A DNA stretch of 64,000 nt from Pratylenchus scribneri (Eukaryota > Nematoda > Chromadorea > Rhabditida > Pratylenchidae): NCBI GenBank assembly GCA_030063045.1, contig JAQSEB010000150.1, positions 992,001 through 1,056,000 of the forward strand, written 5' to 3'. The number at the start of each line of letters is the position of its first letter. Position 1 is the first letter of the stretch. The notes under the pieces are model-generated. The model did no database searches, had not been told where the DNA came from, and saw only the letters and a list, made by a program, of their open reading frames with translations. The translations under genes were made by a program, and so were the position numbers. Below, one piece after another: positions 7,520 through 44,859 of this stretch.

Positions 7520-7555
7520 TAATACGGTTGAGAGGGATGAATAGAGGATGAGAAG

Positions 7556-8024: not shown

Positions 8025-8032
8025 ATGAGAAG

Positions 8033-9798: not shown

Positions 9799-9814
9799 GG
9801 GGGGGGGGGGGGGG
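9799..9814. repeat. G16 homopolymer
   Basis: Sixteen consecutive G in A+T-rich DNA; a site prone to length error and able to form quadruplex structure. Confidence 0.85.
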
Positions 9815-10605: not shown

Positions 10606-11535
10606 CAGTGCTGTGCCAGCTCCGGCTCCGGCTCCAGCTCCGGCTCCAGCTCCAGCTCCGGCTCCGGAGCCGGAGCTGGAGCTGGAGCTAAAAATTTTGG
10701 GGGTCGGAGCTCGGAGCTGGAGCCGGAGCTAAAAATTTGAAGGGTCGGAGTCCGGAGCTGGAGCCGGAGCTAAAAATTTGAAGGGTCGGAGTCCGGAGCT
10801 GGAGCCGGAGCTAAAAATTTGAAGAGTCGGAACCCGGAGCTGGAGCCGGAGCTAGGGATTTTTGGCCGGTTAGTGGCTCCGACTAGGGTTGGATTTAGTC
10901 GGTTTCGGTTTGAGTAAATTGATGAAATTTCAAACCGTAATTGGGAAATTTTGCTATTTTAAACCGAAAATAGGAGAAACCGAAACCGAAAACCGACTTT
11001 TTTCAAAAATCGAAAACCGGATTTTGCCAAAATCCCGGTTTAAAACCGACTTTATCCAACTCAAGCTCCGACCACGTTTCCTTTTTGCCTATCATCTTTT
11101 CAGTCATCATTGGAATTTTCTAATTATAAAACATTTTTTCGCATATAAAAGCATTTAAAACTTAGTCAAAATGTAAATAAAAATTTTGTGTGAAAAAAAT
11201 TCGATTTTTTTTGAACCCGGAGCCGGAGCCAGATTTTGAAAAATTTTTAGTACAAGAGCTGGAGCTTAAAAAAAATGGTCAGAGCCCGGAGCTGGAGCCG
11301 GAGCTAAAAATTTTGGGGGTCGGAGCTCGGAGCTGGAGCCGGAGCTAAAAATTTGAAGGGTCGGAGTCCGGAGCTGGAGCCGGAGCTAAAAATTTGAAGG
11401 GTCGGAGTCCGGAGCTGGAGCCGGAGCTAAAAATTTGAAGGGTCGGAGCCCGGAGCCGAAGCTGGAGCTAAAATTTTTTGGAGTCGGAGCTCGGAGCTGG
11501 AGCCGGAGCTAAAAAATCGGAAAGGCACAGCACTG
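10606..11535. mobile_element. hAT-like element, 930 bp, with GGAGCTGGAGCC repeats
   Basis: The ends are CAGTGCTGTGCC and GGCACAGCACTG, a 12-bp perfect inverted repeat. They are flanked by an exact 8-bp duplication GAAGATAT (10598-10605 and 11536-11543). The interior has tandem units built on GGAGCTGGAGCCGGAGCTAA (period about 40), very G+C-rich against the background. A smaller element sits inside it at 10884-11064. No transposase; non-autonomous. Confidence 0.88.
10884..11064. mobile_element. Nested hAT-like MITE, 181 bp
   Basis: Inserted in the 930-bp element. Its ends, TAGGGTTGGATTTAGTCGGT and the complement of TTGAGTTGGATAAAGTCGGT, match over most positions. It is flanked by an exact 8-bp duplication GCTCCGAC (10876-10883 and 11065-11072). 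The interior is rich in AAACCG and CGGTTT. Confidence 0.85.
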
Positions 11536-29602: not shown

Positions 29603-29608
29603 GCCAAT
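29603..29608. repeat. 6-bp target-site duplication (left)
   Basis: GCCAAT lies directly before the element's AGTAG end and is repeated directly after its CTACT end at 44854-44859. Six-base duplications are the rule for Polinton/Maverick integrases. Confidence 0.92.
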
Positions 29609-31121
29609 AGTAGTTCCTAGCGTAGAATTTTACCGGCTGGCACCCCAGCCCATAGATAACCTCGTACTTCAAACCGGCTGGCAGCATTGCCAGCCTAAAC
29701 CTATGGAAGTGGTTGGCAGCTGGCAATATTGCCAGCTTAAACCTATGGAAGGGTTTGGCAGCTGGCAATTAAGCCCAAGGGTAAACTCAAACCTTTTAGC
29801 CCCCCTCATATTCATGACTAGCCCCTCACACCAGGCCCATAGATAAAGTCAACTTTAAAATTTAGAGCACATGGATTCATGACGGATCTAACCAACTCCA
29901 TAAAAGGCAAAAGGAAGGCATGAGCCGATTTCCATAAAAGGCCAATAGGGCCCAAAGGTAACGGCTGGTTCTTAGATGACTTCCTTGACCCCAAGGAACC
30001 CTTCCCACCCCGGCTGTCAATATAACAAAATCGAGAAATCGACGTGGGATGCTCCCCTTGGCCCCAGGAACCCTTCCCACCCCCTCCAGGAACCACCGGC
30101 TGTCAATAGAGCCCAAATATGGGACCGGCTGTCAATAATGCAAAATCGAGAAATCGATGTGGGATGCTCCCCTTGGCCCCAGGAACCCTTCCCACCTTCT
30201 CCCGGAACCACCGGCTGTCAATAGAGCCCAAATATGGGACCGGCTGTCAATAAGACAAAATCGAGAAATCGATGCGGGATACTCCCCTTGGCCCCAGGAA
30301 CCCTTCCCACCCCCTCCAGGAGCCACCGGCTGTCAATAGAGCCCAAATATGGGACCGGCTGTCAATAATGCAAAATCGAGAAATCGATGTGGGATGCTCC
30401 CCTTGACCCCAGGAACCCTTCCCACCCCCTCCAGGAGCCACCGGCTGTCAATAGAGCCCAAATATGGGACCGGCTGTCAATAATGCAAAATCGAGAAATC
30501 GATGTGGGATGCTCCCCTTGACCCCAGGAACCCTTCCCACCCCTCCCGAACCCAACGGTTGTCAATAGAGCCCAAATATGGGACCGGCTGTCAATAAGAC
30601 AAAATTGAGAAATCGATGTAGGATGGTCCCCTTGGCCCCAGGAACCCTTCCCACCCCCTTTCGGACCCTCCGGCTGTCAGTAGGGCCCAAATATGGTACC
30701 GGCTGTCAATAAGGCAAAATCGAGAAATCGATGTAGGATACTCCCCTTGACCCCAGGAACCCTTCCCACCCCCTTCCGGACCCTCCGGCTGTCAGTAGGG
30801 CCCAAATATGGTACCGGCTGTCAATAAGGCAAAATCGACAAATAGATGTGGGATGCTCCCCTTGACCCCAGGAACTTTTGGCCCTAATTTTAGGATGACT
30901 TTTGAGTTATTTTAATCCCAGATTTAGGATGATATTTTAGGATGGAAAACTAGGATGATATTTCTGAGTTTAGGCCCAATTTTAGGATGACCTTTCTGGA
31001 CTATTTTTTCCGGAGAGAGAGGGAGGAAGAGGGAATTTTTGTGGACTGGAATTTTTTAAGAATGATTTTGGGATATGTTCAGGAATGGAATTTAAGGAGG
31101 AAAACCTCCCACTTATATAGA
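29609..31121. repeat. Left terminal inverted repeat (about 1.51 kb)
   Basis: It matches the complement of 43484-44853. From outside in: unique end (AGTAGTTCCTAGCGTAGAAT), two copies of a 42-bp repeat with palindrome GCTGGCAATATTGCCAGC, a unique segment, eight copies of a 115-bp minisatellite, then a unique segment ending CCTCCCACTTATATAGA. Overlapping open frames spaced by 115 bp are by-products of the repeat and not genes. Confidence 0.92.
29990..30880. repeat. 115-bp minisatellite in left TIR, about 8 copies
   Basis: Each unit contains CAAAATCGAGAAATCGATGT, then CCCCAGGAACCCTTCCCACC and two CCGGCTGTCAATA motifs. Copies were counted by CAAAAT(C/T)GAGAAAT-type sites near 30027, 30140, 30255, 30370, 30485, 30600, 30715 and 30830. 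Confidence 0.88.
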
Positions 31122-31150
31122 TCAGAGACTCACATAAGATCTTGCCAAGA

Positions 31151-31777
31151 TTAATATAATCTTTTTAATCTACACCTACAAATCGACACATGTTCCCTTA
31201 TTTTCTTACATTTGAAGATATATCCCCTTCTTGTACAGACTTTTCCCTTATGACTATTATTATTTCCATTTAATTGTCCATTACTTAATATTATACCATA
31301 CCCACTTACAAACTCATTTTTAGATTTTATTAATAGAGTAGAAAATTTAGGCAATCTCCCCTGTGGAAATCGAGTAACATTGACTATTGATTCTGTGGTT
31401 GTCTTATTTCTTATTACTGATTTATTTGTAGTATTCAGAACGACTTTATATTTTTGACCAACCGTAACATTCCTTTTTGAAAATGACTTATTAGTTAGAG
31501 AAAATAAATTAACATATGATTTGGTAGTAGACATTATTTTTATCTCCTCTCTAGGGACCATATAAGTCGAATTTTTAATGGATTCATTATTCTCAATGTC
31601 CTCCCCTGAAATTCTTTCTATGTAGTCTACAGTTTTATTTATGTGAAATAGTTGATAGAATATGTAACCGAATATTATAAAGTGAATTAATGTGAGGAAG
31701 AAAAGGCTTAGAATTGTCTTTATCTTTACTCTTTATAAACGAGAATGGTAATAGAATAGTGGATATGGATCTTCCAT
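31151..31777 (-). pseudogene. Type II membrane glycoprotein-like gene with early stop
   Basis: The only minus-strand gene of the element, transcribed toward the left TIR and divergent from the integrase. From the ATG at 31777 the frame gives a short N-tail, then a TAA at codon 15 (31735-31733), then one hydrophobic segment (ILSLFFLTLIHFIIFGYIFY). Beyond it lies a 140-150-residue tail with several N-glycosylation sequons (NKS, NVT, NKT, NNS) and a Cys-rich end (VC-C-ICRC). Apart from the stop the frame is open for 208 codons. The next downstream Met (31561) leaves out the membrane segment, so the product is probably lost in this copy. The layout suits a virion or infected-cell surface protein, but no homology is recognised. 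A TATA-like site on the minus strand lies at 31813-31824. Confidence 0.6.
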
Positions 31778-31812
31778 TTTTAATTATTTTTACTTACCGT
31801 TATAAAAATCTA

Positions 31813-31824
31813 GTATTTATAAAC
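31813..31824 (-). promoter_or_regulatory. TATA-like box for the minus-strand gene
   Basis: GTTTATAAATAC on the minus strand, about 36 bp before the ATG at 31777, back to back with the integrase box at 31834. Confidence 0.5.
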
Positions 31825-31833
31825 CCCAAGAAT

Positions 31834-31843
31834 CTATAAATAT
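31834..31843 (+). promoter_or_regulatory. CTATAAATAT box before integrase
   Basis: Exact copy of the repeated CTATAAATAT motif, 28 bp before the integrase ATG at 31871. Confidence 0.6.
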
Positions 31844-31870
31844 ATTTTTCTCCCAATATTCCAAAAGGAA

Positions 31871-32623
31871 ATGATGGACAAACATATAGAAAATATATTA
31901 AAAGACCTCTATTATAATCTCAAATCACCGGTATGTTATTCAGGGGTGGAGAGACTATTGGATGAAGCAAGAAAGAAGAACGGGGCAATAACTCGTGAAA
32001 ATGTGGAAGAATTTCTCTCTAGACAACGTACTTATACACTCTATAGGGATGTAAAAAGGAAGGGAAAGAAATTAAAAACAATACCCTGTTTTCTGAATAC
32101 GGATTGGCAGGCGGATTTGGCTGTATTGAATAGATTGTCAAGAGAAAACGATGGAAATAACTATCTTCTCGTCTGTATCGACGTTCTCAGTAGAATGATA
32201 TATGTAGAACCGGTAAAAACCAAATCCCCAAAAGATATGATTACTTCATTTGATACAATATTTGAACGAACAAAAATAATCCCCTGGCGAATTGCTACTG
32301 ACAAGGGAAATGAGTTCGTGTCTGGTCCGATGAAACGATATTGGGAACATAAAGATATACAGAATATTACACCGGAAAATCCTCTACTTCATGCGACTAT
32401 GGCAGAGAGAGCTATTAGAACAATCAAAGACCGTCTTTATAAAATGATGAGTGAGACAAACAGTATTCGTTGGATTGATCGGATTCAACAACTTGTTAAG
32501 GCGATAAATCATAGTATGCACAGAATTACTGGAATGAGACCGGTCGACGTGAATTATGAGAACGCAGGGGAATTATACGATAGATTATATGGTAAATATA
32601 TAAAAAAATCGAGATATAAATAA
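31871..32623 (+). CDS. Retroviral-type (Polinton c-) integrase, catalytic part
   Basis: DNA integrase that inserts the element and makes the 6-bp target duplication. The N-terminal YYNLKSPVCYSGVERLL and RQRTYTLYRDVKRK segments are typical of Polinton integrases. The DDE catalytic residues are visible: D82 in DWQADLAVL, D144 in ATDKGNEF and E179 in MAERAIRTIKDRLY, with the 35-residue step of retroviral integrases. The frame ends after 250 residues at an A7 run (32602-32608), while the C-terminal SH3-like and chromodomain part continues in the next frame. The start follows a CTATAAATAT box. Known for the family: acts in the nucleus on the terminal inverted repeats. In this copy the split probably removes the C-terminal targeting domains. 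Confidence 0.93.
   Translation: MMDKHIENILKDLYYNLKSPVCYSGVERLLDEARKKNGAITRENVEEFLSRQRTYTLYRDVKRKGKKLKTIPCFLNTDWQADLAVLNRLSRENDGNNYLLVCIDVLSRMIYVEPVKTKSPKDMITSFDTIFERTKIIPWRIATDKGNEFVSGPMKRYWEHKDIQNITPENPLLHATMAERAIRTIKDRLYKMMSETNSIRWIDRIQQLVKAINHSMHRITGMRPVDVNYENAGELYDRLYGKYIKKSRYK
32602..32608 (+). other. A7 run at integrase frame break
   Basis: The catalytic frame runs through this homopolymer and stops at a TAA about 20 bp later. The chromodomain frame is open from 32610 in the +1 register. A one-base change here would join them. A -1 shift would hit a stop, so ordinary -1 slippage does not help. Confidence 0.7.
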
Positions 32624-32954
32624 GACCAAATTCAAAGTCGGTGACACTGTACGTATTGAGAAGCATAAGGCGATGTTTAATAAGGGCGACACTAAATTTA
32701 CTGACGAGATATTTAGAATTGATAAAATTTATTCTAGGAGAATTCCCATAGTATATCGTTTAAAAGATTTAAAAGGTGAACCAATAAGCGGTATTTTTTA
32801 TCAAAATGAACTCTGCCGTGCCTCCGAAGACACATCATGGCGAATTGAAATACTCGATGAGAGAATAAGAAAAGGAAAGAAACAATATTTTGTACATTGG
32901 ATTGGATATCCTAGAGATCAGGATAGTTGGATCGATGCCTCTGATATCATATAA
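32610..32954 (+). pseudogene. Integrase C-terminal part with chromodomain (frame-shifted)
   Basis: Continuation of the integrase in the +1 frame. The first part (KFKVGDTVRIEKHK) is the SH3-like DNA-binding segment found after the catalytic core in Polinton integrases. The end (WRIEILDERIRKGKKQYFVH then WIGYPRDQDSWIDASDII) is a chromodomain with the usual aromatic cage and W-GYP-SW pattern. Chromodomains on integrases steer insertion toward modified chromatin. It has no start signal of its own; the first Met (32673) falls inside the SH3-like part. Confidence 0.85.
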
Positions 32955-32984
32955 TTATAATAAATAACTTATTCATTCTCAAAT

Positions 32985-33345
32985 TAAATATAATATCCTT
33001 CATAGACGAAAACTTCTACCCTTCATAGAATCTACATAGACCTTCTCATAGATATAGATAACTACATAGACATCTACACAAGATAGAGAATATCTACATA
33101 GATTTAATCAATATAGACCATCTACATGGACTTTCTCAAAGATTCTAGATATAGATATCCATACTAGATATACAAGATATCTGCATAGATGTAATCTACA
33201 TAGATTCTACATAGACCCTCTGATAGATATGGACACTTACCTTACACTACCCCTTAGAAAAAAGAAGATCTACATACTCTATATAGACTTTCTCCTAGAT
33301 ATAGACATCTACATAGATCTTCCCATAGGCCCATATTCCATCTAA
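32985..33345. repeat. Iteron-like TCTACATAGA direct repeats
   Basis: About ten imperfect direct copies of (T)CTACATAGA and related CATAGATATAGA words fill the largest internal intergenic gap, between integrase and ATPase. There is no long frame. They could be a regulatory array or a replication-origin-like set of protein-binding iterons; nothing in the sequence decides between these. Confidence 0.6.
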
Positions 33346-33349
33346 TCTA

Positions 33350-33359
33350 CTATAAATAT
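33350..33359 (+). promoter_or_regulatory. CTATAAATAT box before FLYWCH-ATPase
   Basis: Exact motif, 42 bp before the ATG at 33401 and right after the TCTACATAGA repeats. Confidence 0.6.
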
Positions 33360-33400
33360 AATCAAATCATTTGAAATAATTTAAAAATAAACAATAAGCA

Positions 33401-35443
33401 ATGGTTATTGAAGGAGACGGATATCGATATATAATCGTCAATATTAATCGCAATCAAACAAAGCGATATCTCAAATGTAGTAAACACAAAGAAGGTTGTG
33501 GTGGATGGGCAATTGAAGAAAATGGTGATATAAGAATCACAAGAGAACATAATCATCCACCTAATAATGTAACCGATTTAGTAAAGAAAACACAGCCATC
33601 TCTATCTAGCTATGTCAAAATTGGGACACTTCATAAAATCGATGGGAATAAAATTGCTAACTTTCCAAAAGAGAATCAAAAAACCCTATACAAATCCGAA
33701 TTAGAGAAAACATTTAATAATACGAGCGATAATATCGATGAAAATCAGCTCAAATTCATGCATCCATTTAATATGATAGTGGGTGGAGCGAGCGGTTCTG
33801 GGAAGACTCGATGGATAATGAAATTTCTAAGATCCCATGCCCATTTAATCGACACCCCAATGAAACATATCCTCTATTGTTATGGTGTATATGACAACGA
33901 TGTTCTAATATTCCAGAATTGGGGCATGGAAACACATTACGGTCTTCCAGCTGAAGAGAAATTAAAGGAATTACCGAAACCTCTACTTGTAATTTTCGAT
34001 GATTTAATGGTAGAGAGTAAATCTAAATATCTCGATATCCTATTCACACGTGGAAGTCATCATTGGAATATGAGTATTGTCTTTGTGACACAAAATTCAT
34101 TTAATAGACAACTCTCTAGTGCCAGAACAAATTCCCACTATCTTGTCCTATTGAAGAGTCCATCATCTGAGTTACAGATTCGCATACTAGGTTCTCAATT
34201 ATTCCCACGAAACCTAAATTATTTTATGGAATCCTATACAGATGCCACTGATAATCCATTTGATTATCTGGTGATTAATAATCATCCCAGGGGTAATAAA
34301 CAATTGAAGTTGACCTCGGATATTTTCCCAAATGAATATCTGACTGTCTATTCAAATAGTGGTAATAAAATGAATAAGAGAAGATTGATAGATTTAGATG
34401 AATTGGGCCTTCAAAATGATCCATTGGTGGAACCTATAGATGCCCAGATTGAAGAAGAGGGGAAACAGCTAAAATTAATTAAAAATAATAGGCAGCTACC
34501 CATAGAGGAAAAGAATTATAAAACCATGGACCACTTTAATAAATTGGCAAGACTCATTCATAATCGCGAATCCAGACCGACAAATGTTAATATAGTTGAA
34601 ATTGGTAAAAATCTGGTTGAGGGAAACAATAGGAAATTTAATCCTATGAATTATCATAAAGAAGAAAACAATGAAGATGAATGGATATGGGATGATGAGG
34701 ATTTGAAAAGTCGACAATATGGTTCAGGGAGTATCCTTTTTTCCCGTCGACCCGGTCTTCCCATGAAGGATGATGAAGAGGAGGAAGAAGTATCAGATGA
34801 GGAGGAAATTGATGAAGAAGAATATCAACAATTTCTGAAGGAATGGAATCGGCTACAGGAATCAAGAGAGCAGGCTGAAAGAGATAAAAAATGGTATGAT
34901 GAACAGGAAGAGAGGGAAATTCAACGGGGTAGAGAGGAAAAGATCTCCGATAAAGAGGATATCGATGAAAAAGATTATCAAAAATTCCTGAAAGAATGGA
35001 AACAACTTAAAGTAATGGACGAAGAGAATGAAAAAGATATAAAATCGTATGAAGAACAGGGAAAGAAACAACACGGTAGGGGCCATTTCTTAGAACAAAA
35101 GAATACCCTATCAAATGATAATATGAAAAATGAACAGAAGAGGGAAAAGTTAGATTTTTTTCTAACCATTATTGCTGATGGTGATATGAAGAGACGAAAG
35201 AGATTAATTGAGGGTGCCTCGGATATACAGATTAAAAAGCTCCATTGTTTGATTATAAATATGATTAAAGGAGATTTTAAATATACAGAAAAAGAAAAAG
35301 AATCATTAAAGAAATTTGGAGAATTCTATCATTCATTACGTCTAAAACGTCGTCTTGATACCATTAGAGAAAATCTAGTTACAAAAGTGGGATTGAGAGC
35401 ATTAGGACCTCTTCTAGCTCCACTATGTCGAGAAAAATTTTAA
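33401..35443 (+). CDS. FLYWCH-packaging ATPase fusion protein
   Basis: A 680-residue protein with at least three parts. Residues 7-53 look like a FLYWCH/WRKY-GCM1 zinc finger (GYRY, YLKC26-x6-C33, then H50-N-H52), a DNA-binding module common in transposases. Residues 115-310 are a FtsK/HerA-type (A32-like) genome-packaging ATPase: Walker A GASGSGKT at 129-136, Walker B LLVIFDD at 195-201, sensor VFVTQN at 227-232, and the ATDNPFDYLVIN segment. Residues 430-580 are highly charged, coiled-coil-like, with an internal duplication (EEYQQFLKEW and KDYQKFLKEW). Residues 583-680 resemble a small basic protein (ending GLRALGPLLAPL) that relatives encode separately, as I recall. Polinton ATPases are normally only about 200-300 residues. 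Likely role: DNA packaging into the capsid, perhaps with DNA recognition by the zinc finger. Confidence 0.85.
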   Translation: MVIEGDGYRYIIVNINRNQTKRYLKCSKHKEGCGGWAIEENGDIRITREHNHPPNNVTDLVKKTQPSLSSYVKIGTLHKIDGNKIANFPKENQKTLYKSELEKTFNNTSDNIDENQLKFMHPFNMIVGGASGSGKTRWIMKFLRSHAHLIDTPMKHILYCYGVYDNDVLIFQNWGMETHYGLPAEEKLKELPKPLLVIFDDLMVESKSKYLDILFTRGSHHWNMSIVFVTQNSFNRQLSSARTNSHYLVLLKSPSSELQIRILGSQLFPRNLNYFMESYTDATDNPFDYLVINNHPRGNKQLKLTSDIFPNEYLTVYSNSGNKMNKRRLIDLDELGLQNDPLVEPIDAQIEEEGKQLKLIKNNRQLPIEEKNYKTMDHFNKLARLIHNRESRPTNVNIVEIGKNLVEGNNRKFNPMNYHKEENNEDEWIWDDEDLKSRQYGSGSILFSRRPGLPMKDDEEEEEVSDEEEIDEEEYQQFLKEWNRLQESREQAERDKKWYDEQEEREIQRGREEKISDKEDIDEKDYQKFLKEWKQLKVMDEENEKDIKSYEEQGKKQHGRGHFLEQKNTLSNDNMKNEQKREKLDFFLTIIADGDMKRRKRLIEGASDIQIKKLHCLIINMIKGDFKYTEKEKESLKKFGEFYHSLRLKRRLDTIRENLVTKVGLRALGPLLAPLCREKF

Positions 35444-36066
35444 TCCCTGAGGAAATGTTCATTGCATTGAGACATAGATGGGATAAAGATAATCCCAGAA
35501 ATTTCGGGGAGAAAATTGTATTAGAATCAAATGAACAAATAAAAAATTCACTTACAAATGAGATTTTGGGACCGGAGGAGAGGGTGGCCAGATACAATGA
35601 GAATTTTCGTAAATTTAAAAATCTACATAATAAGAGAAGGGAACGAGCAAAAAATATTGCAATACGTGATATACTTTTAAATGAACCTGTGGAATTCTTG
35701 AATAGGGGAGAAAGGGAGAGAATATCTCCTAGAGAAATCAAGAATGAACCTGAATATATTCCATTAAGTGAAACACCTAAACGTAAAGAATTGGCAGAGA
35801 AGTTTAAAGAGAGGAAAATAGAACGTATCTTGAATTACATAAGGGATCATCATACACGATTGGGTGTTAGTGGAGATGGTAGAATTGAACGGAGAAAGGG
35901 TGTGGTTTATAAGAATAGTAATATTGAAGATATTGTCCGTACAATACTTGGATATACGAAACCAAATCGTAAACCGGACGGTTATAATATAGCCTGTCAA
36001 CGTTTTCTAGAGGATGTTAATCTTATACGAATGATCGGTTCGGCAAAGTTGATAGCAGAAGATTGA
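35425..36066 (+). CDS. Conserved-type element protein of unknown function
   Basis: 213 residues, starting inside the last 19 bp of the ATPase gene, so probably translated from the same transcript. The N-terminal 140 residues are charged and helical (ERVARYNENFRKFKNLHNKR). The C-terminal 70 residues (GDGRIERRKGVVYKNSNIED then a P-DGYNIACQRFLEDVNLIR pattern) resemble a domain I recall from companion proteins in related capsid-encoding elements (SNI-DL ... P-G ... FL). No enzymatic motif is visible. Function unknown; position between packaging and capsid genes suggests a virion role. Confidence 0.7.
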   Translation: MSRKILIPEEMFIALRHRWDKDNPRNFGEKIVLESNEQIKNSLTNEILGPEERVARYNENFRKFKNLHNKRRERAKNIAIRDILLNEPVEFLNRGERERISPREIKNEPEYIPLSETPKRKELAEKFKERKIERILNYIRDHHTRLGVSGDGRIERRKGVVYKNSNIEDIVRTILGYTKPNRKPDGYNIACQRFLEDVNLIRMIGSAKLIAED

Positions 36067-36072
36067 CCTTAT

Positions 36073-36082
36073 CTATAAATAT
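36073..36082 (+). promoter_or_regulatory. CTATAAATAT box before penton gene
   Basis: Exact motif seven bases after the preceding stop codon, 161 bp before the penton ATG. A weaker CTATAAATTAT lies at about 36138. The true start site in this 177-bp gap is uncertain. Confidence 0.45.
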
Positions 36083-36243
36083 TTCCTATACATTTATCTT
36101 TTAAATGTCAAGGTTTATATTTCTGAAGAAATTTTATCTATAAATTATTTTTCTCAATACCTTCCTATATAATTTTTTAATTTTCAAGATTTATATTTCT
36201 GGAGAAATTACACCCTAAATCATAATATATATCCTTCCTAATC

Positions 36244-38582
36244 ATGAATTCATTCTACGTATATTTACCCTCAAATTCAAAAGGTACAAATAATAATAAC
36301 AAGACCTCATCTTTCACAATTCAGTTGTCAAAAAGATTGAATTTTTCAGATGCGAGTTGGTCCGTTGCACTCACCAATATAATCTATCCCATATCATGGC
36401 CTAATCTGGGTACATATAGAAATGAATTTATCGACATAAATTGGAAAGAAAGGGGAAAAACACGTCTGTATATCCCATTGATAACCTTTAATAACAGTCC
36501 TGAAGAATTATTATCATCTCTATTTTCCCTTCTAAATAATGCCTCACAGAAACTCTGTAAGAGGACAAGGCGTAGCGTAGTCTATGATGACCTCTGGAAA
36601 TTGGAGTTAGAACTATTTAATGCAGAGGATATTATCTACCTTTGTAGAATGAATATACAGATCGCAGGGGAACGTATGCCTAGTGTTATTGGTAAAAAAG
36701 TTTATTTTGAGACACTTAAAAAATTATCAGAAGAATTGATCAAGGAATATGAATTAAGAATTGCCACATTCAAGGGTTATGTGCAGGCTAAGGAACAGGA
36801 GATGCTGATCTGGGATATAGAGAAATTCTATAGTGAGATAGAAAAGTCAAATAAGATTTTGGCTGAGAAGAGTCAAGAATTGGGTATTCTAGCATATCAA
36901 CTTACACTGACCAATGATGAAGTGGAACTAGTTCATTATACGGATATAGAATGGTATAAAAATACAAAGGAATTGGACAATATTGACTCCTCACCATTAT
37001 GGGATATAGAAAAATTGAAACAGCATGTTAATAAATTCGTCTCATTAGATGGACGTACTAATTTTTCTGGAATCGATAGACGTTATCTACTTGATTCGGA
37101 TGGAATTGAATTGAGAAATAAGTTATCGACATATCCAAGAGAGAAACCGGATGGAAAAAAACCGTATATTGAATGGGTGACCCTATTGATTTCTTATAAT
37201 AGGATTCAGGTGGAAATTATGGAAGAGAAATTGAAATTAGGTGGATTGGAACGAATTAAACAAATGCGAAAAATTATCGATTCGGAGAAAGAAAATGAAT
37301 ATAATAAATTGGTCGAAAAATTGAAGAATCTAGAAAATGATAATGAAAAATATACAAAACAGGTTAAAAATCTAAATGAAATAAACGAAAAATTAGAGAT
37401 TGCAAAGAAGACAATGAGAGAAAATGAAATAAATTATGTTAGAGAGTTGGAAATCTTAAATGAAAATATTACTAAAGAAAGGGAGAAATTGTCAAAAATT
37501 GTAAGTGAACAGAAAAGTACTGAAGAAGATCGTAGAAAATTAGAGAACGAAATTGAAAATTTTAAAGAAAATATTTTCAAAAAAGACGAGATTATAAAAG
37601 CATTGGAGAAAAGAATTGTGGCCATGAAAGTTGATGAGAATTTAGGGGAAGATGAGAGGGCAAAAATATCTTCTGAGTTGGAAAATTTAAAAATTGGAAA
37701 GAAAAAAATTGAAGATGAGAAAAATAAATTATTACAAGAGTTAGGTAATAGGGAGAATGACGAAACGAAAAAGTTTATGAAGAAAATTGAAGAAATTGAG
37801 AAAGATAGAGCAGAGATAATAATGGAGCGAGACAGGCATGAAAAAGAGAAAATTAGGTTTGAAAAAATGATTATAGAATTAAAAAGAGAGATTACCGAAA
37901 AGGAGGAGGAAAAATTGAAATCAAAAATGGATATAGAGAATATAGAAAAAGAAAATAGTCGGGTGAAAGCAGAAGGTGATATATTACGTCAACAGTTAGA
38001 ATCATATAAGAGAGAAATAATCCCTGATGGAAATGAGAATAAAATATCTATGGATTGTGACATAGTAAATTGGGATCTAGGTACCATATATAATTATTTG
38101 AAATTCACCTATGATTCAAATCGTGAAAGATTTGCATTAAATTTGAATAGAGAATATATTGAGAGGGTTGAACTCTCGGAACAGTTAAAGTATATAATGG
38201 GTTTCGATAACAAATATTTTGAGGATGAAATCTCAATTGCCAGATATCTCCCAGATCTTAGTGGGGGTATCCATACACTATACATATATGCTCCCTCACA
38301 CATTGAACATACAATAATCGGTGATATTTCAGCACCATTACTTAGAATAGCCAAAGTGAAGGGTAAAAGTGGCGATATAGTGGAGGACACATTTCTAAAT
38401 CCACAATACTATAGAGTCATTGAGAAGACTACACATTTCTAAATCCACAATACTATAGAGTCATTGAGAAGACTGTCTCACAGATCAAGATAGATATAAA
38501 TACTAACACCGGTCGTCTAGTTCCATTCAATTACGGTAATTGTATATTAACCTTACATTTTCGAAAGAATCTTATAATATAA
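36244..38582 (+). pseudogene. Penton-like minor capsid protein with long coiled-coil insertion (C-terminus cut by duplication)
   Basis: The N-terminal about 100 residues (MNSFYVYLPSNSKG, SSFTIQLSKRL, ALTNIIYPISWPNLG) and the C-terminal end (HTIIGDISAPLLRIAKVKGK then FLNPQYYRV) match the penton-like protein that accompanies F54H12.2-type capsids. Between them lie about 500 extra residues, of which about 334-595 are a charged heptad-rich coiled coil, unlike a compact jelly-roll penton. The frame stops at 38442 after 732 codons because a 44-bp segment is duplicated (38387-38430 and 38431-38474). The old reading frame resumes after the second copy and ends at 38582, three bases before the next ATG. 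About 36 family-conserved C-terminal residues are therefore lost or replaced. Role by analogy: capsid vertex. Confidence 0.8.
38387..38474 (+). repeat. 44-bp tandem duplication inside penton gene
   Basis: Two exact copies of a 44-bp unit beginning ACACATTTCTAAATCCACAA. Because 44 is not a multiple of three it shifts the frame, and the TAA inside the second copy ends the protein. Exact identity points to a very recent event. Confidence 0.95.
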
Positions 38583-38585
38583 AAA

Positions 38586-39062
38586 ATGCCACATGTTATG
38601 TTTGATCCTAATTCCATCGATTGGGAACAGATTATTCTGGCACAGATAGGAAGTGGCTTCTATTTTGAAAGTCTACCCTATCAACGAGGTGCCGGTATAG
38701 GGACAATTTTTGGTCATATACTTAGATATCTTATTCCTATTGGGAAAATTATTGGAAAGGAGATTGGAATGGAGGGTCTTAGAAGTAGTGAAAGAATTGT
38801 ACAGGATATTTTGGCCGGTAATCCTGTGAAAAAGTCTGTCCTAGTTGAAACACAACAGGGTTTGAAAAATGCCGTCGACAATATATATGCAAGGGGAGAT
38901 GAAATGTTTGCTAAACAAAAGGGAGAGGGGAGGGGTAGAAGGAGGAGAGTTGCCCATTCTAGAGTTGGTCCTATATCGATGGTGAATAAACCTAAACCAA
39001 AATCGAAAAAGAAAGCAACCGGTAGGGATAAAAAGATGAGTGATTATTTAATAAATTTTTAA
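38586..39062 (+). CDS. Small basic minor virion protein (pVI/pX-like position)
   Basis: 158 residues. Starts three bases after the original penton stop. Order: a short N-tail, a glycine-rich hydrophobic/amphipathic segment (GAGIGTIFGHILRYLIPIGK then IIGKEIGMEGL, residues 36-66), a helical middle, and a strongly basic C-terminus (GEGRGRRRRV, KPKPKSKKKATGRDKK). Similar small proteins with a YQRG-GIG-IF...LRY-PI-K start stand between penton and capsid genes in related elements, as I recall. The amphipathic part could act on membranes and the basic tail could bind the packaged DNA; both are inferences. Confidence 0.72.
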   Translation: MPHVMFDPNSIDWEQIILAQIGSGFYFESLPYQRGAGIGTIFGHILRYLIPIGKIIGKEIGMEGLRSSERIVQDILAGNPVKKSVLVETQQGLKNAVDNIYARGDEMFAKQKGEGRGRRRRVAHSRVGPISMVNKPKPKSKKKATGRDKKMSDYLINF

Positions 39063-39136
39063 ATATGGTTTTTAGATTCTATCTGAAAACGTACCTATCC
39101 TATTAGATGTGTAAGTTTACCTTTTAATTTTTTAAA

Positions 39137-39146
39137 CTATAAATAT
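39137..39146 (+). promoter_or_regulatory. CTATAAATAT box before capsid gene
   Basis: Exact motif in the 135-bp gap, 51 bp before the capsid ATG at 39198. Confidence 0.6.
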
Positions 39147-39197
39147 ATGTATACTAAAATGTATTTAATATAATAATAAATTAGAACAAATCAAATC

Positions 39198-40517
39198 ATG
39201 AGTACACTAAAGAAAATCGATAGTGAGAGTGGCCCATCCTGGAATTCTGCCCTCAACATCTTTACAGTGCCACCGACAAATTCCAATTTTAATAGGGCTG
39301 CAATCAGAGAAATCCTCCCACTCAACTCAATTGAAGAGAATCCATATGAATTCCGTATTTTCAGTGACAATAATTGGATCGATCCATCCAAAGTCTATCT
39401 TTATTTGGAGTTAAGTATCGAGAAAAAGGATGGAAATAATTGGGTGGGTCTGGTGGATGCGGACACCCATGTTGCGCCAATCCAGGCAATTGGTCAGAGT
39501 TTCGTCAAACAGCTAAAAATGACCATCAATGGGACAGATGTATACGATTCTACAAATCTCTATCCATATATAAGTTATATAAAAAGGGAGTTATATTATC
39601 CAAAGGATTGTAAGGAATCCTTTTTCGGTGCAGAGGGATATTATATGGAAAAGAAATTGAATGATGCCAATGATGAGGGTTTCATGAGTCGTGTTAAACT
39701 GATGAAGAATAGTAGTGTCTGTGAATTTATGTCTCGATTGGATTTTGACCTTGCCAATCAACCACTATTCCTGTTAAACAATCTGGATATTCTGTTCACA
39801 ATCTATCGTTCCGATGATGCCTTCCTCATACAGACACTTAGAGCCGATGATAATGGAGAATATCGGGTAAGGGTCCATGGTGCAAAACTCTATGTTAAAA
39901 CTCTGGAACTACAACCTTCATTAAATTTGACCATTTTTAAAATTCTTGAGCAGAAGGCTGCAAAATATACAATTAGAAAGAATGAGATCCGTTCCTGTTA
40001 TCTCTCTGCACAGAGAAGTGAGATTTCATATAATGCATTTACAAATATTCTGCCACGTCGGTTGATAGTAACTTTTGTAAAAAATGACGACTACAGGGGT
40101 AGTTTTAAAACAAATCCATTCAATTTTAGGCTATATGATCTAAGGGAAATCTCCGTAAATGCCGGTGGTCTCCTCTTCCCCGCCGTTCCATATAATATGA
40201 AATTTAATGGGGCAACTAAAAAATTTATGCGAGCATTCATTGACATGCATTTGGCTACTGGAAATGGGGAGAGTCAAACCAATGGACTATCATTGGAGAA
40301 ATTCTTAAGTGGTTGGAGTTTCTTTATATTCACACTTACAAGTACATTAGATGACGAGAGAGGTGTAGAGATTGTTCGACAGGGAACCACGACCATCCGG
40401 GCCCAATTCAATACACCGATTCCAGATGGTGGTGCAACGATGATTATTCTAGGAGAGTTTGATCAGATTCTTGCTATAGATCAGAATCGTGTTGTGATTT
40501 CGGATACAACAGTTTAG
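39198..40517 (+). CDS. Major capsid protein, probable double jelly-roll (F54H12.2-like)
   Basis: 439 residues, frame intact. The N-terminal LNIFTVPPTNSNFNRA, followed by YEFRIFSDNNWIDPSKVYLY and QAIGQSFVKQLKMTINGTDV, follows the order seen in the F54H12.2-like capsid family (L-FT-PPT, then a phrase on I-D, then FV-L---NG--V). The sequence is beta-rich without membrane segments, as expected for a double jelly-roll. It sits between the minor virion protein and the protease, as in other Polintons. This would build the icosahedral shell. Assignment is from remembered family patterns and gene order, not a structure prediction. Confidence 0.78.
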   Translation: MSTLKKIDSESGPSWNSALNIFTVPPTNSNFNRAAIREILPLNSIEENPYEFRIFSDNNWIDPSKVYLYLELSIEKKDGNNWVGLVDADTHVAPIQAIGQSFVKQLKMTINGTDVYDSTNLYPYISYIKRELYYPKDCKESFFGAEGYYMEKKLNDANDEGFMSRVKLMKNSSVCEFMSRLDFDLANQPLFLLNNLDILFTIYRSDDAFLIQTLRADDNGEYRVRVHGAKLYVKTLELQPSLNLTIFKILEQKAAKYTIRKNEIRSCYLSAQRSEISYNAFTNILPRRLIVTFVKNDDYRGSFKTNPFNFRLYDLREISVNAGGLLFPAVPYNMKFNGATKKFMRAFIDMHLATGNGESQTNGLSLEKFLSGWSFFIFTLTSTLDDERGVEIVRQGTTTIRAQFNTPIPDGGATMIILGEFDQILAIDQNRVVISDTTV

Positions 40518-40532
40518 GCTAATAAAATAATA

Positions 40533-40991
40533 ATGGATAATATTACAATAAATTATCTACTTAAAAACAATCCAAGTGTGAAGAGATTCTTTCTTGGCTG
40601 TTTTCCCTGTGATCATATCCCATACACGGATAGATATCCATATTTTGTGGTCGTCAATACGGATAGTTCCTTCCAACCTGGTACTCATTGGGTTGTAATA
40701 TATGTTTTAAAAGACCAATATGTAGAATATTTTGATTCCTATGGTGGAACGCCTAATCCCTGTATTCAAAAGTATCTTGATAATTATAAATATGTTAAGA
40801 TCAATAAATTCCAGATACAGAGTGATTTTTCCCCAGTTTGTGGTCAATATTGTATCTATTTCAGTATAAAAAGGTCAGAGGGTATAAATTTTGACGAAAT
40901 TATTCAAAAGTTAAGACATATTAAAGATCCCGATAGATACGTACGAAATCATTTATTAACATGGACGAGTATGCCATCAGGAATATGTTAA
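40533..40991 (+). CDS. Adenain-like cysteine protease
   Basis: 152 residues. The catalytic set of adenovirus-type proteases is complete: H52 in GTHWVVIY, D68 in EYFDSYGG, Q96 and C103 in SPVCGQYCIYF. The Q-to-C step of seven residues is the one found in adenain, and the CGQYC pattern is diagnostic. Known role of the family: maturation of capsid proteins. It follows the capsid gene by 15 bp with no promoter motif between them, so the two are probably co-transcribed. Intact. Confidence 0.9.
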   Translation: MDNITINYLLKNNPSVKRFFLGCFPCDHIPYTDRYPYFVVVNTDSSFQPGTHWVVIYVLKDQYVEYFDSYGGTPNPCIQKYLDNYKYVKINKFQIQSDFSPVCGQYCIYFSIKRSEGINFDEIIQKLRHIKDPDRYVRNHLLTWTSMPSGIC

Positions 40992-41221
40992 ATTCCCTAC
41001 TTCAGAATAATACTGGAATAATAAAACCCCCGACTGATATATGTTCAATTGCCAGGGTATTCACAAATGATACCAATCTCCCACTGACGATTTTCTGCAT
41101 ACTCTATTTCATATTTTGGATTTTCCTTTTTGGAATCGGTGGCTATTTTTATATGAAAAGAGTCATTGGAAAGAATCGAAATAGTACACAGGAAATTCCC
41201 CTAACCTCTCTAAATCCCTAA
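40961..41221 (+). CDS. Small single-pass membrane protein
   Basis: 86 residues, starting 31 bp inside the end of the protease gene in another frame. An N-terminal domain of about 40 residues with sequons (NNT, NDT) precedes one membrane helix (residues 41-64, LPLTIFCILYFIFWIFLFGI) and a basic tail (MKRVIGKNR). The pattern suggests an outside N-terminus with a short inner tail. No family recognised; the overlap with the protease supports a real gene. Confidence 0.6.
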   Translation: MDEYAIRNMLNSLLQNNTGIIKPPTDICSIARVFTNDTNLPLTIFCILYFIFWIFLFGIGGYFYMKRVIGKNRNSTQEIPLTSLNP

Positions 41222-41232
41222 GTTTCGTTCTA

Positions 41233-41242
41233 TTATAAATAT
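41233..41242 (+). promoter_or_regulatory. TTATAAATAT box
   Basis: One base off the common motif, 79 bp before the ATG at 41321, followed by a short (AT)n run. Confidence 0.45.
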
Positions 41243-41320
41243 ATATATATATATGATAGGTTTCTAAATCATTGATTAAGGGTTTAAAATAAATAAATAA
41301 ATAAAAATTACTTTTAGAAA

Positions 41321-41665
41321 ATGGGTTTAATTATTGGAGGTATGGCAGTTTTATTAAAGATTATCATAACGGCCGTTTTTGGAGCAGCCTTCAAGATGGG
41401 CTATGATAAGATGATGAAGATAGCCGAAGTGAAAGGGGCTGTTATGAATGGTTTATTGAATGTTAAACGTGTAATTAGGAAAAATTTTATGATCCCTATT
41501 TATTTTAGAGGTGCAAATGAGATTGGGAAATTATCGGTCTGTGAAAGTGCGGAAAATGGTCCATGTTTCCCCGTGGAGGAATTTATTTCAAAAGAGAATA
41601 TTGAAGGTGGAGATATTGTTTGTGATTCAGAGGGTAGTTGTATAAAATTTAAAGAAGATATTTAA
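41321..41665 (+). CDS. Membrane-anchored Cys-rich protein, paralogue 1
   Basis: 114 residues: a hydrophobic N-terminus (residues 1-24, LIIGGMAVLLKIIITAVFGA), a basic helix, and a C-terminal module with four cysteines (C74, C82, C101, C107; pattern VC-x7-C...IVCD-x4-C). The same module ends the next gene (41727), so the two are paralogues. Four spaced cysteines suggest either two disulfides or metal binding. Function unknown. Confidence 0.6.
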   Translation: MGLIIGGMAVLLKIIITAVFGAAFKMGYDKMMKIAEVKGAVMNGLLNVKRVIRKNFMIPIYFRGANEIGKLSVCESAENGPCFPVEEFISKENIEGGDIVCDSEGSCIKFKEDI

Positions 41666-41669
41666 AAAA

Positions 41670-41679
41670 CTATAAATAT
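41670..41679 (+). promoter_or_regulatory. CTATAAATAT box
   Basis: Exact motif five bases after the preceding stop, 47 bp before the ATG at 41727. Confidence 0.6.
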
Positions 41680-41726
41680 TCCTTTCTTGTCTTTCTCTTG
41701 GTATCTCTAATTTACTCCCTAAATCA

Positions 41727-42002
41727 ATGTTCTTCTGTGTAGTTTCTAAAATCTTTTCCATGATCCGTTTTTTAATCCGTGGTACCAGGAAAGTCTATAT
41801 CTTTGGAAAAGATGGGATGAGAAGAAATCTTTCCATGGGGCGTTCCTTTGGGGAACATTCCACCGGGGAACATTCAATCGAAATAAAAAATCAGCAGCCA
41901 TTTGTATGTCAAAACGGGGAAAATTGTAAAGATATAAGGGAAATTATCGATAGGGGAGAGAAAATTTGCGATGATCGTGACTGTCTATTAAGGGGTCTAT
42001 AA
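41727..42002 (+). CDS. Cys-rich protein, paralogue 2
   Basis: 91 residues: a short hydrophobic start (FFCVVSKIFSMIRFLI), a basic middle with a SFGEHSTGEHS repeat, and the four-cysteine module C61, C67, C81, C86 (FVCQNGENC ... KICDDRDCLL) shared with the 41321 gene. Its stop codon overlaps the next CTATAAATAT motif. Function unknown. Confidence 0.58.
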   Translation: MFFCVVSKIFSMIRFLIRGTRKVYIFGKDGMRRNLSMGRSFGEHSTGEHSIEIKNQQPFVCQNGENCKDIREIIDRGEKICDDRDCLLRGL

Positions 42003-42006
42003 ATAT
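41997..42006 (+). promoter_or_regulatory. CTATAAATAT box overlapping a stop codon
   Basis: The TAA stop of the 41727 gene is part of the motif. It is followed 115 bp later by the PAZ gene; a second A+T-rich candidate (TTTATATAAAG) lies directly before that ATG. Confidence 0.5.
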
Positions 42007-42121
42007 TTCGATATGATATAGAAGTTCTATTTCTCATTCCCGAATTTATATTTGAAATATTTAAAAATATTACTTAAAAATCGTTATTTCTCTATTCAAC
42101 GGATAATTTATATAAAGAAAA

Positions 42122-42541
42122 ATGCCAACTTCACTAGTTGATATTTGTTGTAATTTATTTAAATGTAAACCTAGGGAATTAAAAAAAATGTTCCTTCGTC
42201 CCGAATATTACTGGCCTCTATGGTTATATTTTAAAATAGATGAATGTGGGCAATTCTGGATTCCACATTTGAGAAAATTTGTTACGTTCGATGGCTTCTC
42301 CCGATATCCCTCAGATAGACAATTTGCCTATAATGGATTTCAACGTACCACCGTAGTCCAACATTTCTATTCAAGGCATGGAATCAGAGTAAAATATCCG
42401 AAACTCCCGTGTATAAAAGTAAAAAGGGGAATGAGAAAAAGGGGCGGATATCATTACGATTATTTTCCACTGGAACTGGTTTTATATTATAGTCATGTCG
42501 AGTTGTCCTCAGCACCCCTGTACCGAACTAATCGAAGATAA
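42122..42541 (+). CDS. Stand-alone Argonaute-type PAZ-domain protein
   Basis: 139 residues. Residues 49-120 follow the Argonaute PAZ domain closely: LRKFVTFDGFSRYPSDRQFA corresponds to the first PAZ strands, TTVVQHFYSRHGIRVKYPKL to the conserved TV-QYF---H-I-L-YP-L stretch, then PCIKV, a basic loop (KRGMRKRGG) and YFPLELV for the YLPLEV strand. PAZ domains grip the 3' end of small RNAs. No N-terminal, MID or PIWI domain is present and the protein ends 19 residues after the PAZ, so it cannot be a slicer. A capsid-encoding element with a lone PAZ could bind host small RNAs and interfere with silencing, or recruit host RNAi factors; this is inference. The ATG follows a TATATAAAG sequence. The next gene overlaps its end by 47 bp. 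Confidence 0.78.
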   Translation: MPTSLVDICCNLFKCKPRELKKMFLRPEYYWPLWLYFKIDECGQFWIPHLRKFVTFDGFSRYPSDRQFAYNGFQRTTVVQHFYSRHGIRVKYPKLPCIKVKRGMRKRGGYHYDYFPLELVLYYSHVELSSAPLYRTNRR

Positions 42542-43175
42542 TAGACGAGGGGATATAATCTGTCCAGAATGTGGCCTTGTTATTTTGGATAGGTGTATAT
42601 TTGAAGATAGGTTTTCACCGATAGATAATGATTTTCGGGAAGAGAGGGAAAATTTCCCTGCATATTATCATATCTTAATAGATGGGTATATAGCCAAATT
42701 AGGTCTACCGGATCCAATCAAATTTAAGGCAATTGAAATATATGAAAAAATACGGGATAGGTTAGTGTCTAAGAGTTTAGAAATAAAAAGTAGTGTAGCT
42801 GTTTTGATTGCCTGCAGAATGGAAAGGATAAATAAAACTTTTTTAGATCTATCTATGGTAAGTGGTTTAAGTTCAGCGGTTATATGTAGGAATATGAAAC
42901 TTGTAGAAGATAAATTTGATTTCAAAAATTCCCTAAAAGATAAAAACCATCTAGATACCGTGCTTCGTTATTCATCATTACTTAATCTATCATATAAAAT
43001 GGCTGTGGAAATTTCAGAACTATATGAAATGGAGATTGTCAAGGGCCGTAATCCTCTTTCAATATTGGGTGCATGTTTCTATAAAGTAATGGGAGAAAGA
43101 ATCGAAGAGATCTCCAAAGTTGTTTCCATATCGAAGACTACATTGCTAAAGACGTATAAAATCCTATTCAATTAG
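42495..43175 (+). CDS. TFIIB-like transcription initiation factor
   Basis: 226 residues. Residues 4-26 are a TFIIB zinc ribbon (C4-x2-H7 ... C23-x2-C26; ELIEDNRRGDIICPECGLVI), with the same 19-residue step between the Cys pairs as in eukaryotic TFIIB. Two cyclin folds follow: residues about 75-138 (IACRMERINKTFLDLSMVSG) and about 155-226 (GRNPLSILGACFYKVM then EISKVVSISKTTLLKTYKIL). The linker is shorter than in cellular TFIIB (about 316 residues in animals). It would contact RNA polymerase II and TBP at promoters. It is the last gene before the right TIR, and the repeated CTATAAATAT motif before the other genes is a plausible target. TFIIB homologues are known in large DNA viruses; I know of none as a standard Polinton gene. 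Confidence 0.9.
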   Translation: MSSCPQHPCTELIEDNRRGDIICPECGLVILDRCIFEDRFSPIDNDFREERENFPAYYHILIDGYIAKLGLPDPIKFKAIEIYEKIRDRLVSKSLEIKSSVAVLIACRMERINKTFLDLSMVSGLSSAVICRNMKLVEDKFDFKNSLKDKNHLDTVLRYSSLLNLSYKMAVEISELYEMEIVKGRNPLSILGACFYKVMGERIEEISKVVSISKTTLLKTYKILFN

Positions 43176-43483
43176 AGTTGTTCATTGTGTGGCATACAGA
43201 GAAAAAAGATGAAAAGAAGGAATTAAAAGAAATAGCTTATATTATTATTATATATTATGTTTTTAAATTTTATCTTAAGATTTATTTGTATTATTGTATT
43301 TCTATATTGTAGATATTTTATTCTATTCCATATTGTAATAGTATTTTCAAAATGAGATAAATTTGCCTTGGTCTGTGCCAAGTGAACCAAAAAATCAATG
43401 TGTATAATTTATTTTAAACGGAAAAGGATCATAATAATCTTGACATGATTTTATAAGTTTTATGGGCGTGGTCTAAATGGTCT
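43176..43483. other. Gap between TFIIB gene and right TIR
   Basis: A+T-rich 308 bp with no frame of note. Probably 3' untranslated and polyadenylation sequence for the plus-strand genes (T-rich, several ATTATA/TATTATA words), but no site can be fixed. Confidence 0.4.
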
Positions 43484-43734
43484 TCTATATAAGTGGGAGG
43501 TTTTCCTCCTTGAATTCCATTCCTGAACATATCCCAAAATCATTCTTAAAAAATTCCAGTCCACAAAAATTCCCTCTTCCTCCCTCTCTCTCCGGAAAAA
43601 ATAGTCCACAAAGGTCATCCTAAAATTGGGCCTAAACTCAGAAATATCATCCTAGTTTTCCATCCTAAAATATCATCCTAAATCTGGGATTAAAATAACT
43701 CAAAAGTCATCCTAAAATTAGGGCCAAAAGTTCC

Positions 43735-44425
43735 TGGGGTCAAGGGGAGTATCCCACATCGATTTCTCAATTTTGCCTTATTGACAGCCGGTCCCATATT
43801 TGGGCTCTATTGACAGACGGTGGCTCCTGGAGGGGGTGGGAAGGGTTCTTGGGGCCAAGGGGAGTATCCCACATCGATTTCTCGATTTTGCCTTATTGAC
43901 AGCCGGTACCATATTTGGGCCCTACTGACAGCCGGAGGGTCCGAAAGGGGGTGGGAAGGGTTCCTGGGGCCAAGGGGACCATCCTACATCGATTTCTCAA
44001 TTTTGTCTTATTGACAGCCGGTCCCATATTTGGGCTCTATTGACAACCGTTGGGCTCGGGAGGGGGTTGGAAGGGTTCCTGGGGTCAAGGGGAGCATCCC
44101 ACATCGATTTCTCGATTTTGCCTTATTGACAGCCGGTCCCATATTTGGGCACTATTGACAGCCGGTGGGCTCGGGAGGGTGTGGGAAGGGTTCCTGGGGC
44201 CAAGGGGAGCATCCCACATCGATTTCTCGATTTTGCATTATTGACAGCCGGTCCCATATTTGGGCTCTATTGACAGCCGGTGGTTCCGGGAGGGGGTGGG
44301 AAGGGTTCCTGGGGCCAAGGGGAGCATCCCACGTCGATTTCTCGATTTTGTCTTATTGACAGCCGGTCCCATATTTGGGCACTATTCACAGCCGGTGGGT
44401 CCGGGAGGGGGTGGGAAGGGTTCCT
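43735..44425. repeat. 115-bp minisatellite in right TIR, about 6 copies
   Basis: Units counted by GATTTCTC(A/G)ATTTTG sites near 43760, 43877, 43994, 44111, 44224 and 44341, each followed by TTGACAGCCGGTCCCATATT-like sequence. Confidence 0.85.
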
Positions 44426-44649
44426 TGGGGTCAAGGAAGTCATCTAAGAACCAGCCGTTACCTTTGGGCCCTATTGGCCTTTTATGGAAATCGGCTCATG
44501 CCTTCCTTTTGCCTTTTATGGAGTTGGTTAGATCCGTCATGAATCCATGTGCTCTAAATTTTAAAGTTTGACTTTATCTATGGGCCTGGTGTGAGGGGCT
44601 AGTCATGAATATGAGGGGGGCTAAAAGGTTTGAGTTTACCCTTGGGCTT

Positions 44650-44785
44650 AATTGCCAGCTGCCAAACCCTTCCATAGGTTTAAGCTGGCAATATTGCCAG
44701 CTGCCAAACCCTTCCATAGGTTTAAGCTGGCAATATTGCCAGCTGCCAACCACTTCCATAGGTTTAGGCTGGCAATGCTGCCAGC
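44650..44785. repeat. 42-bp repeat with perfect palindrome, 3 copies
   Basis: GCCAGCTGCCAAACCCTTCC plus ATAGGTTTAAGCTGGCAATATT. The junctions create GCTGGCAATATTGCCAGC, a perfect 18-bp palindrome. The left TIR has two copies (29690-29770). Confidence 0.8.
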
Positions 44786-44853
44786 CGGTTTGAAGTACGA
44801 GGTTATCTATGGGCTGGGGTGCCAGCCGGTAAAATTCTACGCTAGGAACTACT

Positions 44854-44859
44854 GCCAAT
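44854..44859. repeat. 6-bp target-site duplication (right)
   Basis: GCCAAT, identical to 29603-29608. Confidence 0.92.

Follow-up and report, generated by a model that had tools for sequence, protein, structure and literature searches.

The window analysed here, 64,000 nucleotides of the plant-parasitic nematode Pratylenchus scribneri (contig JAQSEB010000150.1, positions 992,001 to 1,056,000 of the forward strand), contains a whole Polinton-type transposon, one gene of which encodes what is, by its sequence and modelled fold, a free-standing Argonaute PAZ domain. PAZ genes accompany most of the capsid genes scored in the same genome and diverge in step with them, and the window copy is under purifying selection. 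Its most likely role would be suppression of the RNA interference (RNAi) of the host.

The PAZ protein was identified by several comparisons. Open reading frames (ORFs) of at least 139 amino acids occurred at 0.06 per region when the 16-kb region was base-shuffled 50 times. A Pfam scan of the 139-residue protein gave PAZ (PF02170) at E 7.8e-9 and 36.0 bits, against a curated cut-off of 28.8, and no second family at E <= 1. The top phmmer matches in the PDB were the PAZ domains of AGO2 and AGO1 (E 1.3e-3 to 1.9e-3). With a family profile of 23 rows the match to AGO2 reached 8.5e-16, followed by AGO1, AGO4 and AGO3 and, more weakly, by plant AGO10 (1.3e-4) and Drosophila Ago2 (0.13); the 34 distinct PDB sequences found at E <= 1 by this profile included no Dicer or PIWI-clade chain, and the last three were unrelated proteins. 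The AlphaFold2 model had a mean predicted local distance difference score (pLDDT) of 88.1 and a predicted template modelling score (pTM) of 0.80, and all 44 PDB matches found with it at E <= 1e-3 were Argonautes. According to the model and the structure comparison, the whole PAZ domain including its N-terminal helices is retained, and the protein stops soon after the final PAZ strand. No MID or PIWI domain was found by Pfam in this protein or in a 279-residue relative (locus L011), whose sole Pfam domain is a PAZ that passes the cut-off at 37 bits; a member of the family at L037 scored 21.4 bits, under the cut-off. Dicer helicase and RNase III domains had no match in the ten window proteins scanned with Pfam. 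The sequence-only reading, which had taken the gene for a lone Argonaute PAZ carried by a capsid-bearing transposon and free of PIWI, MID and Dicer parts, is borne out by the domain matches and by the matching ends and target-site duplication of the element that carries the gene, and the predicted fold, which it had proposed to compare with that of AGO PAZ, agrees. Long acidic tails with pairs of cysteines follow the PAZ domain in L011, L020, L037 and their relatives.

The genome of P. scribneri (227 Mb in 276 contigs) was searched with PAZ and capsid queries. The window PAZ protein gave 150 scored matches at E <= 1, a second PAZ query 148 at E <= 0.001, and the Pfam PAZ model 143 at E <= 0.01, the best of which were exons of host Argonautes. 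The capsid protein gave 106 matches at 96 scored loci; these are 96 of 345 candidates, and divergent Polintons are missed. When all rows of both protein queries were combined with the non-overlapping rows of the Pfam model, 227 PAZ places were obtained, host Argonautes included. A PAZ place from this set was present within 12 kb of 84 of the 96 capsid loci, compared with 1, 1, 3, 4 and 4 loci after the capsid positions had been shifted by 60-200 kb and with 2.3 expected under random placement; conversely, 85 of the 227 PAZ places were near a scored capsid locus. A trimmed PAZ list, made of 138 of the 150 window-query rows (12 weak rows omitted) and 32 rows of the Pfam model, and without 26 rows judged to be exons of host Argonautes, unusual long frames or the like, gave 72 of 96. 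Addition of 19 hand-picked places of the second query raised this to 84 of 96, and the untrimmed recount gave the identical number. Among 17 genomic contexts (L028-L044), four that are absent from the capsid list carry capsid, protease and PAZ genes together (L032, L034, L037 and L039), and another four (L028, L040, L042 and L044) had no capsid match within the fetched stretch. The many Polinton loci of this genome comprise several capsid families, and their PAZ proteins are strongly diverged. Not every relative is intronless: the PAZ gene of the largest capsid family is apparently split by a short intron, as seen in two copies (L067, C33:3124850-3125550; L068, C82:950-1550).

The history of the PAZ gene was followed by comparison with the capsid gene. 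Across nine loci that carry both, PAZ identity correlated with capsid identity (Mantel r 0.935, p 0.0002); after deduplication to six families r was 0.857, a value reached by 9 of 720 permutations. In the PAZ tree, 34 rows of Polinton or hit PAZ sequences stood on one side of a single branch with a Shimodaira-Hasegawa-like approximate likelihood ratio (SH-aLRT) support of 100. A fresh capture from the host in each element is not favoured because of this branch and because PAZ distances track those of the capsid. The tree holds three cellular rows, one of them long-branched, and its root is not secure; a single origin is therefore consistent with the tree and not proved by it. The capsid tree was built from seven PAZ-linked loci and a choice of 25 among 120 listed relatives (32 rows in all) and came with a long-branch warning; in it, PAZ-linked families fell on both sides of the midpoint, as did Meloidogyne, and the Ditylenchus, Aphelenchus, Globodera and Heterodera rows were nested on one side. 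Selection was estimated from the ratio of nonsynonymous to synonymous substitution (dN/dS). Between the window PAZ gene and that of L029 the ratio was 0.11 over the full length and 0.06 after removal of the 47 bp that overlap, in another frame, with the TFIIB-like ORF (5 nonsynonymous and 18 synonymous changes, binomial p 4e-9); the other genes of the same pair of elements gave 0.04 (capsid), 0.22 (protease) and 0.28 (TFIIB). Against four near relatives the window PAZ gave 0.11-0.12. The remaining PAZ pairs were mostly between 0.03 and 0.46. A number of these pairs are either saturated or identical, the fetched stretch truncates some of the sequences, and a minority of PAZ copies in the genome contain stops. 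From linkage at 84 of 96 loci, the Mantel correlation and the dN/dS of 0.06, the PAZ gene is therefore regarded as long established in a Polinton clade and kept under selection.

This clade apparently belongs to plant-parasitic nematodes. A protein search with the single window PAZ sequence returned one match (94%), and the family alignment reached 29 proteins, two of them with a species name (Meloidogyne enterolobii and M. graminicola); the other database relatives were reached by the alignment and not by the single sequence. For the capsid, 120 of 176 relatives were listed, and those with a name came from Meloidogyne, Ditylenchus, Globodera, Heterodera and Aphelenchus/Aphelenchoides. Viral contigs, scanned twice, gave no PAZ relative outside the nematode group, and the BFVD collection of predicted viral structures gave no match at E <= 0.001 (best 0.69), with none labelled PAZ among 50 of 185 weak rows. 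The P. scribneri genome itself contains three multi-exon host Argonaute loci of animal type, seen through their PAZ matches, which we take to be ALG-like. For M. incognita, an excerpt of PMC5934874 counts 36 Argonautes by their Piwi, PAZ and AGO1 domains and reports amplified CSR-1-like WAGOs and no piRNA (PIWI-interacting RNA) Argonaute found. The genome paper of M. graminicola (PMC7593179) describes three Mavericks, and its main text does not mention PAZ. A consequence for annotation is that PAZ-only genes in genomes of this kind, such as the Meloidogyne entries named 'PAZ domain-containing protein', may be Polinton genes and not Argonaute fragments.

Recurrence across related elements, together with selection, suggests a tool against the RNA-silencing defence of the host. 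The source of the domain is most likely an AGO/ALG-type Argonaute, from which the ancestor of the Polinton clade would have captured it and passed it down with the capsid genes, so that the suppressor would be a piece of an Argonaute of the host's own type. PAZ is a domain without a catalytic site. The protein would grip host small RNAs at their 3' ends or 2-nt 3' overhangs and, offering neither slicer nor 5'-end site, would occupy these ends and produce no silencing; small interfering RNAs (siRNAs) would be sequestered or diverted, and silencing of the transcripts of the element would be weakened. We consider this binding of small-RNA 3' ends, with a blunting of host RNAi, the most likely function, and our belief in it is about evenly balanced with doubt. 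By the titles of their PDB entries, solved structures include isolated AGO PAZ domains holding RNA.

The putative 3'-end pocket was assessed with the contact residues given for hAGO2 in an excerpt of PMC5896489, placed on an alignment of 52 sequences, namely 29 database proteins and a selection of 23 out of 46 distinct open-frame sequences (four of these 46 are host). At the position of H316 His was found in 49 of 52, and at that of R315 44 sequences have Arg and 3 have Lys; the PDB holds entries of an AGO2 R315V/H316A mutant. The position of Y338 was occupied by Tyr (32) or Phe (19). The H271 column contained Tyr (39), His (10) and Trp (3), with an ambiguous window row in which a small shift would put His50 there. 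Taken jointly, the ten contact positions were more conserved than the other 108 mapped positions (one-sided p 0.041).

Several observations weigh against an RNAi suppressor that acts through this pocket. The Y311 position carries His in 32 of 52 sequences, Tyr (12) and Phe (6) being less frequent there; Lys or Arg stands at the R277 position in only 37; no confident alignment of F294 was obtained across the 52 sequences; and three of the ten contacts (positions 277, 295 and 337) lie below the median conservation. A subset of five positions gave p 0.004, having been picked after the data had been seen. Judged from the alignment, then, some and not all of the reported RNA-contact residues are retained: in the pocket that the sequence-only reading had proposed to check, the R315, H316 and Y338 positions are largely kept, with departures at Y311 and R277. 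Selection is also uneven: the PAZ pair L044/L062 has a dN/dS of 0.99, L039/L048 shows 5 nonsynonymous and 0 synonymous changes, and L011/L008, L011/L020 and L038/L051 have 0.46, 0.41 and 0.39. At 12 of the 96 capsid loci no PAZ place was found inside 12 kb. Nematode secondary siRNAs are single-stranded and Argonaute-loaded, and their 3' ends may therefore be beyond the reach of a free PAZ. Both small-RNA binding and suppression are read from sequence and predicted fold. The roles suggested in the sequence-only reading, to shield the element from silencing or to guide host RNAi proteins, would be plausible on the same footing.

The same evidence was weighed for other functions. The PAZ protein could bind the nucleic acid of the element itself, either single-stranded DNA 3' ends arising in replication or the 3' ends of transcripts, and serve as an end-protecting, replication or packaging factor. 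The proximity of PAZ to capsid and protease genes at many loci would fit this, as would the capsid linkage and sequence constraint expected of a core function; the AGO PAZ pocket also accepts DNA, since the title of PDB entry 1si2 names a deoxynucleotide overhang and binding of deoxynucleotides to the hAgo2 PAZ is mentioned in an excerpt of PMC5896489. However, no DNA polymerase B was detected in the window element, so that no local replication partner is visible, and the present results do not separate RNA from DNA binding; we consider this function unlikely, though it is the strongest of the alternatives. Rather less likely still is an action through protein contacts, in which the PAZ protein would mimic the Argonaute surface and titrate a partner or block loading with no need for RNA. 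Retention of the entire domain with its N-terminal helices and the long tails of some families could be understood in this way, but the greater overall conservation of the RNA-contact positions is not predicted by mimicry. The coexistence in one genome of many Polinton loci, several capsid families and strongly diverged PAZ proteins would also suit a protein that turns host small RNAs on competing Polintons or stabilises element-derived small RNAs for latency; yet without MID and PIWI a PAZ protein cannot itself direct cleavage, and this proposal, which draws on genomic sequence, is improbable. That the gene is a decaying captured fragment without function is hardly credible: stops or little constraint are confined to a minority of copies, whereas the window copy keeps its low dN/dS with or without the overlap and PAZ persists in divergent families.

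An RNAi suppressor of this kind can be compared with known systems. The predicted fold, the length, the N-terminal helices and part of the 3'-end contacts are shared with the PAZ of Argonautes (AGO1-4 and the nematode ALG clade), from which the Polinton protein differs in lacking N, MID and PIWI, in being a single-domain product of a mobile element and in usually having His at the Y311 position. The viral silencing suppressor p19 binds siRNA. With such suppressors the proposed protein would share the withholding of small RNAs from host Argonautes, whereas the putative binder here is homologous to Argonaute itself. In the viral RNase III suppressors (PMC4352025), too, a virus employs a protein related to an RNAi domain of the host type. 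Unlike the PAZ domain, those enzymes cut double-stranded RNA. The element resembles Polintons/Mavericks in its integrase, A32 ATPase and capsid with double jelly-roll relatives, and in its long terminal inverted repeats and 6-bp target-site duplication, and a candidate adenain-like protease, known from a weak match, would add to this; unlike them it has PAZ as a regular member of the gene set, and the window copy gave no DNA polymerase B.

Provided that the protein does bind small RNAs, it would be a virus-borne suppressor derived from the guide-binding part of Argonaute, of which a single nematode genome holds many copies. This raises the question of how large virus-like transposons persist in animals with an siRNA rather than a piRNA defence. 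The broader proposal, in which we place slightly less confidence than in the suppressor function as such, is that a whole Polinton clade of plant-parasitic nematodes, with a core PAZ gene diverging alongside the capsid gene, represents a new class of RNAi suppressor built from the domain that grips guide 3' ends, perhaps the means by which these elements persist in hosts reported to be without piRNA Argonautes. The literature was searched for PAZ together with Polinton, Maverick, adintovirus, virophage, Meloidogyne, silencing suppressors and captured Argonaute parts. No earlier description of a Polinton-borne PAZ was among the literature matches listed; the study of nematode Polintons by Jeong et al. 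(2023) may contain a mention. Neither PAZ nor Argonaute occurs in the main text of PMC11071308 and PMC11071296, an excerpt of PMC6361761 names the PAZ domain and Polinton with no link between them, and both terms also occur in PMC6128900.

The features of the window element are collected in Table 1. It is flanked by a 6-bp target-site duplication, GCCAAT (29603-29608 and 44854-44859), and both ends start with AGTAGTTCC. The outermost 161 nt of the left inverted repeat are 100% complementary to 44693-44853, and the inner 582 nt 97%. Measured in 2-kb steps, the GC content is 30-41% at 30-46 kb, against 15-21% at 12-28 kb and 46-64 kb.

Table 1. Features of the Polinton-type element in the window
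Feature	Position	Strand	Basis or remark
Whole Polinton-type element, 15,245 bp	29609..44853		inverted arms and flanks read directly
Left terminal inverted repeat region	29609..31121		internal 115-bp tandem repeats, 30010-30875
Integrase (rve), 250 aa	31871..32623	+	66% identity to L030 homologue
A32-type packaging ATPase, 680 aa	33401..35443	+	Pox_A32 2.8e-7, above cut-off
732-aa protein upstream of capsid gene	36244..38442	+	homologues in related elements
Major capsid protein, 439 aa	39198..40517	+	DJR-like_dom in two of six aligned homologues
Adenain/Ulp1-like protease, 152 aa	40533..40991	+	Peptidase_C5 E 0.017, below cut-off
Stand-alone Argonaute-type PAZ protein (by sequence and model), 139 aa	42122..42541	+	ATG at 42122, stop ends 42541; Pfam, PDB profile, AlphaFold2 model, linkage, dN/dS
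TFIIB-like transcription factor, 226 aa	42495..43175	+	TFIIB 2.5e-13, Zn_Ribbon_TF 4.7e-7
Right terminal inverted repeat region	43484..44853		115-bp tandem repeats as in the left one, 43730-44436

The window integrase was assigned by its identity to the L030 homologue, which matches rve (2e-8) and Chromo (1.1e-5) in Pfam. Among the capsid homologues the best E value to DJR-like_dom was 7.2e-5, and the two matching members also had a weak match to Teneurin TTR-like (0.0065); the window capsid protein's own row had no Pfam match, and the capsid profile gave nothing significant in the PDB (best E 0.3). The protease, whose label comes from a sub-threshold match, is encoded next to the capsid gene in related loci as well, and a TFIIB-like gene likewise stands beside the PAZ gene in relatives (L030:3588-4343 and L031:4964-5719). 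The 732-residue protein matched nothing in Pfam above cut-off and nothing in PHROGs, and calling it penton-like would be a guess from its position. PHROGs gave no match for seven window proteins. With the polymerases of two sibling elements as queries, no significant match to DNA polymerase B was obtained in the window; for this reason we call the element a Polinton relative with no detected polymerase of its own. DNA_pol_B_2 is present in L044 and L034 according to Pfam, and the polymerase of a sibling element possibly replicates the window element.

In some Polinton families an innexin gene lies directly beside the PAZ gene, as in L043 (5136-6164, minus strand, PF00876 4.5e-85). The genome contains 34 innexin-like matches at E <= 1e-20, of which 19 are within 3 kb of a PAZ place; such neighbours occur on contigs C155, C15, C48, C41, C45, C13, C64, C22, C2, C60, C176, C23 and C114, and some innexin-like copies carry stops. 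A literature search for innexin together with Polinton found no paper. Outside the element, window positions 4000-12000 are GC-richer (31-36%), with a positive GC skew and tandem arrays of 31-bp and 41-bp units, and the listed ORFs of at least 120 amino acids in this part are translations of the repeats.
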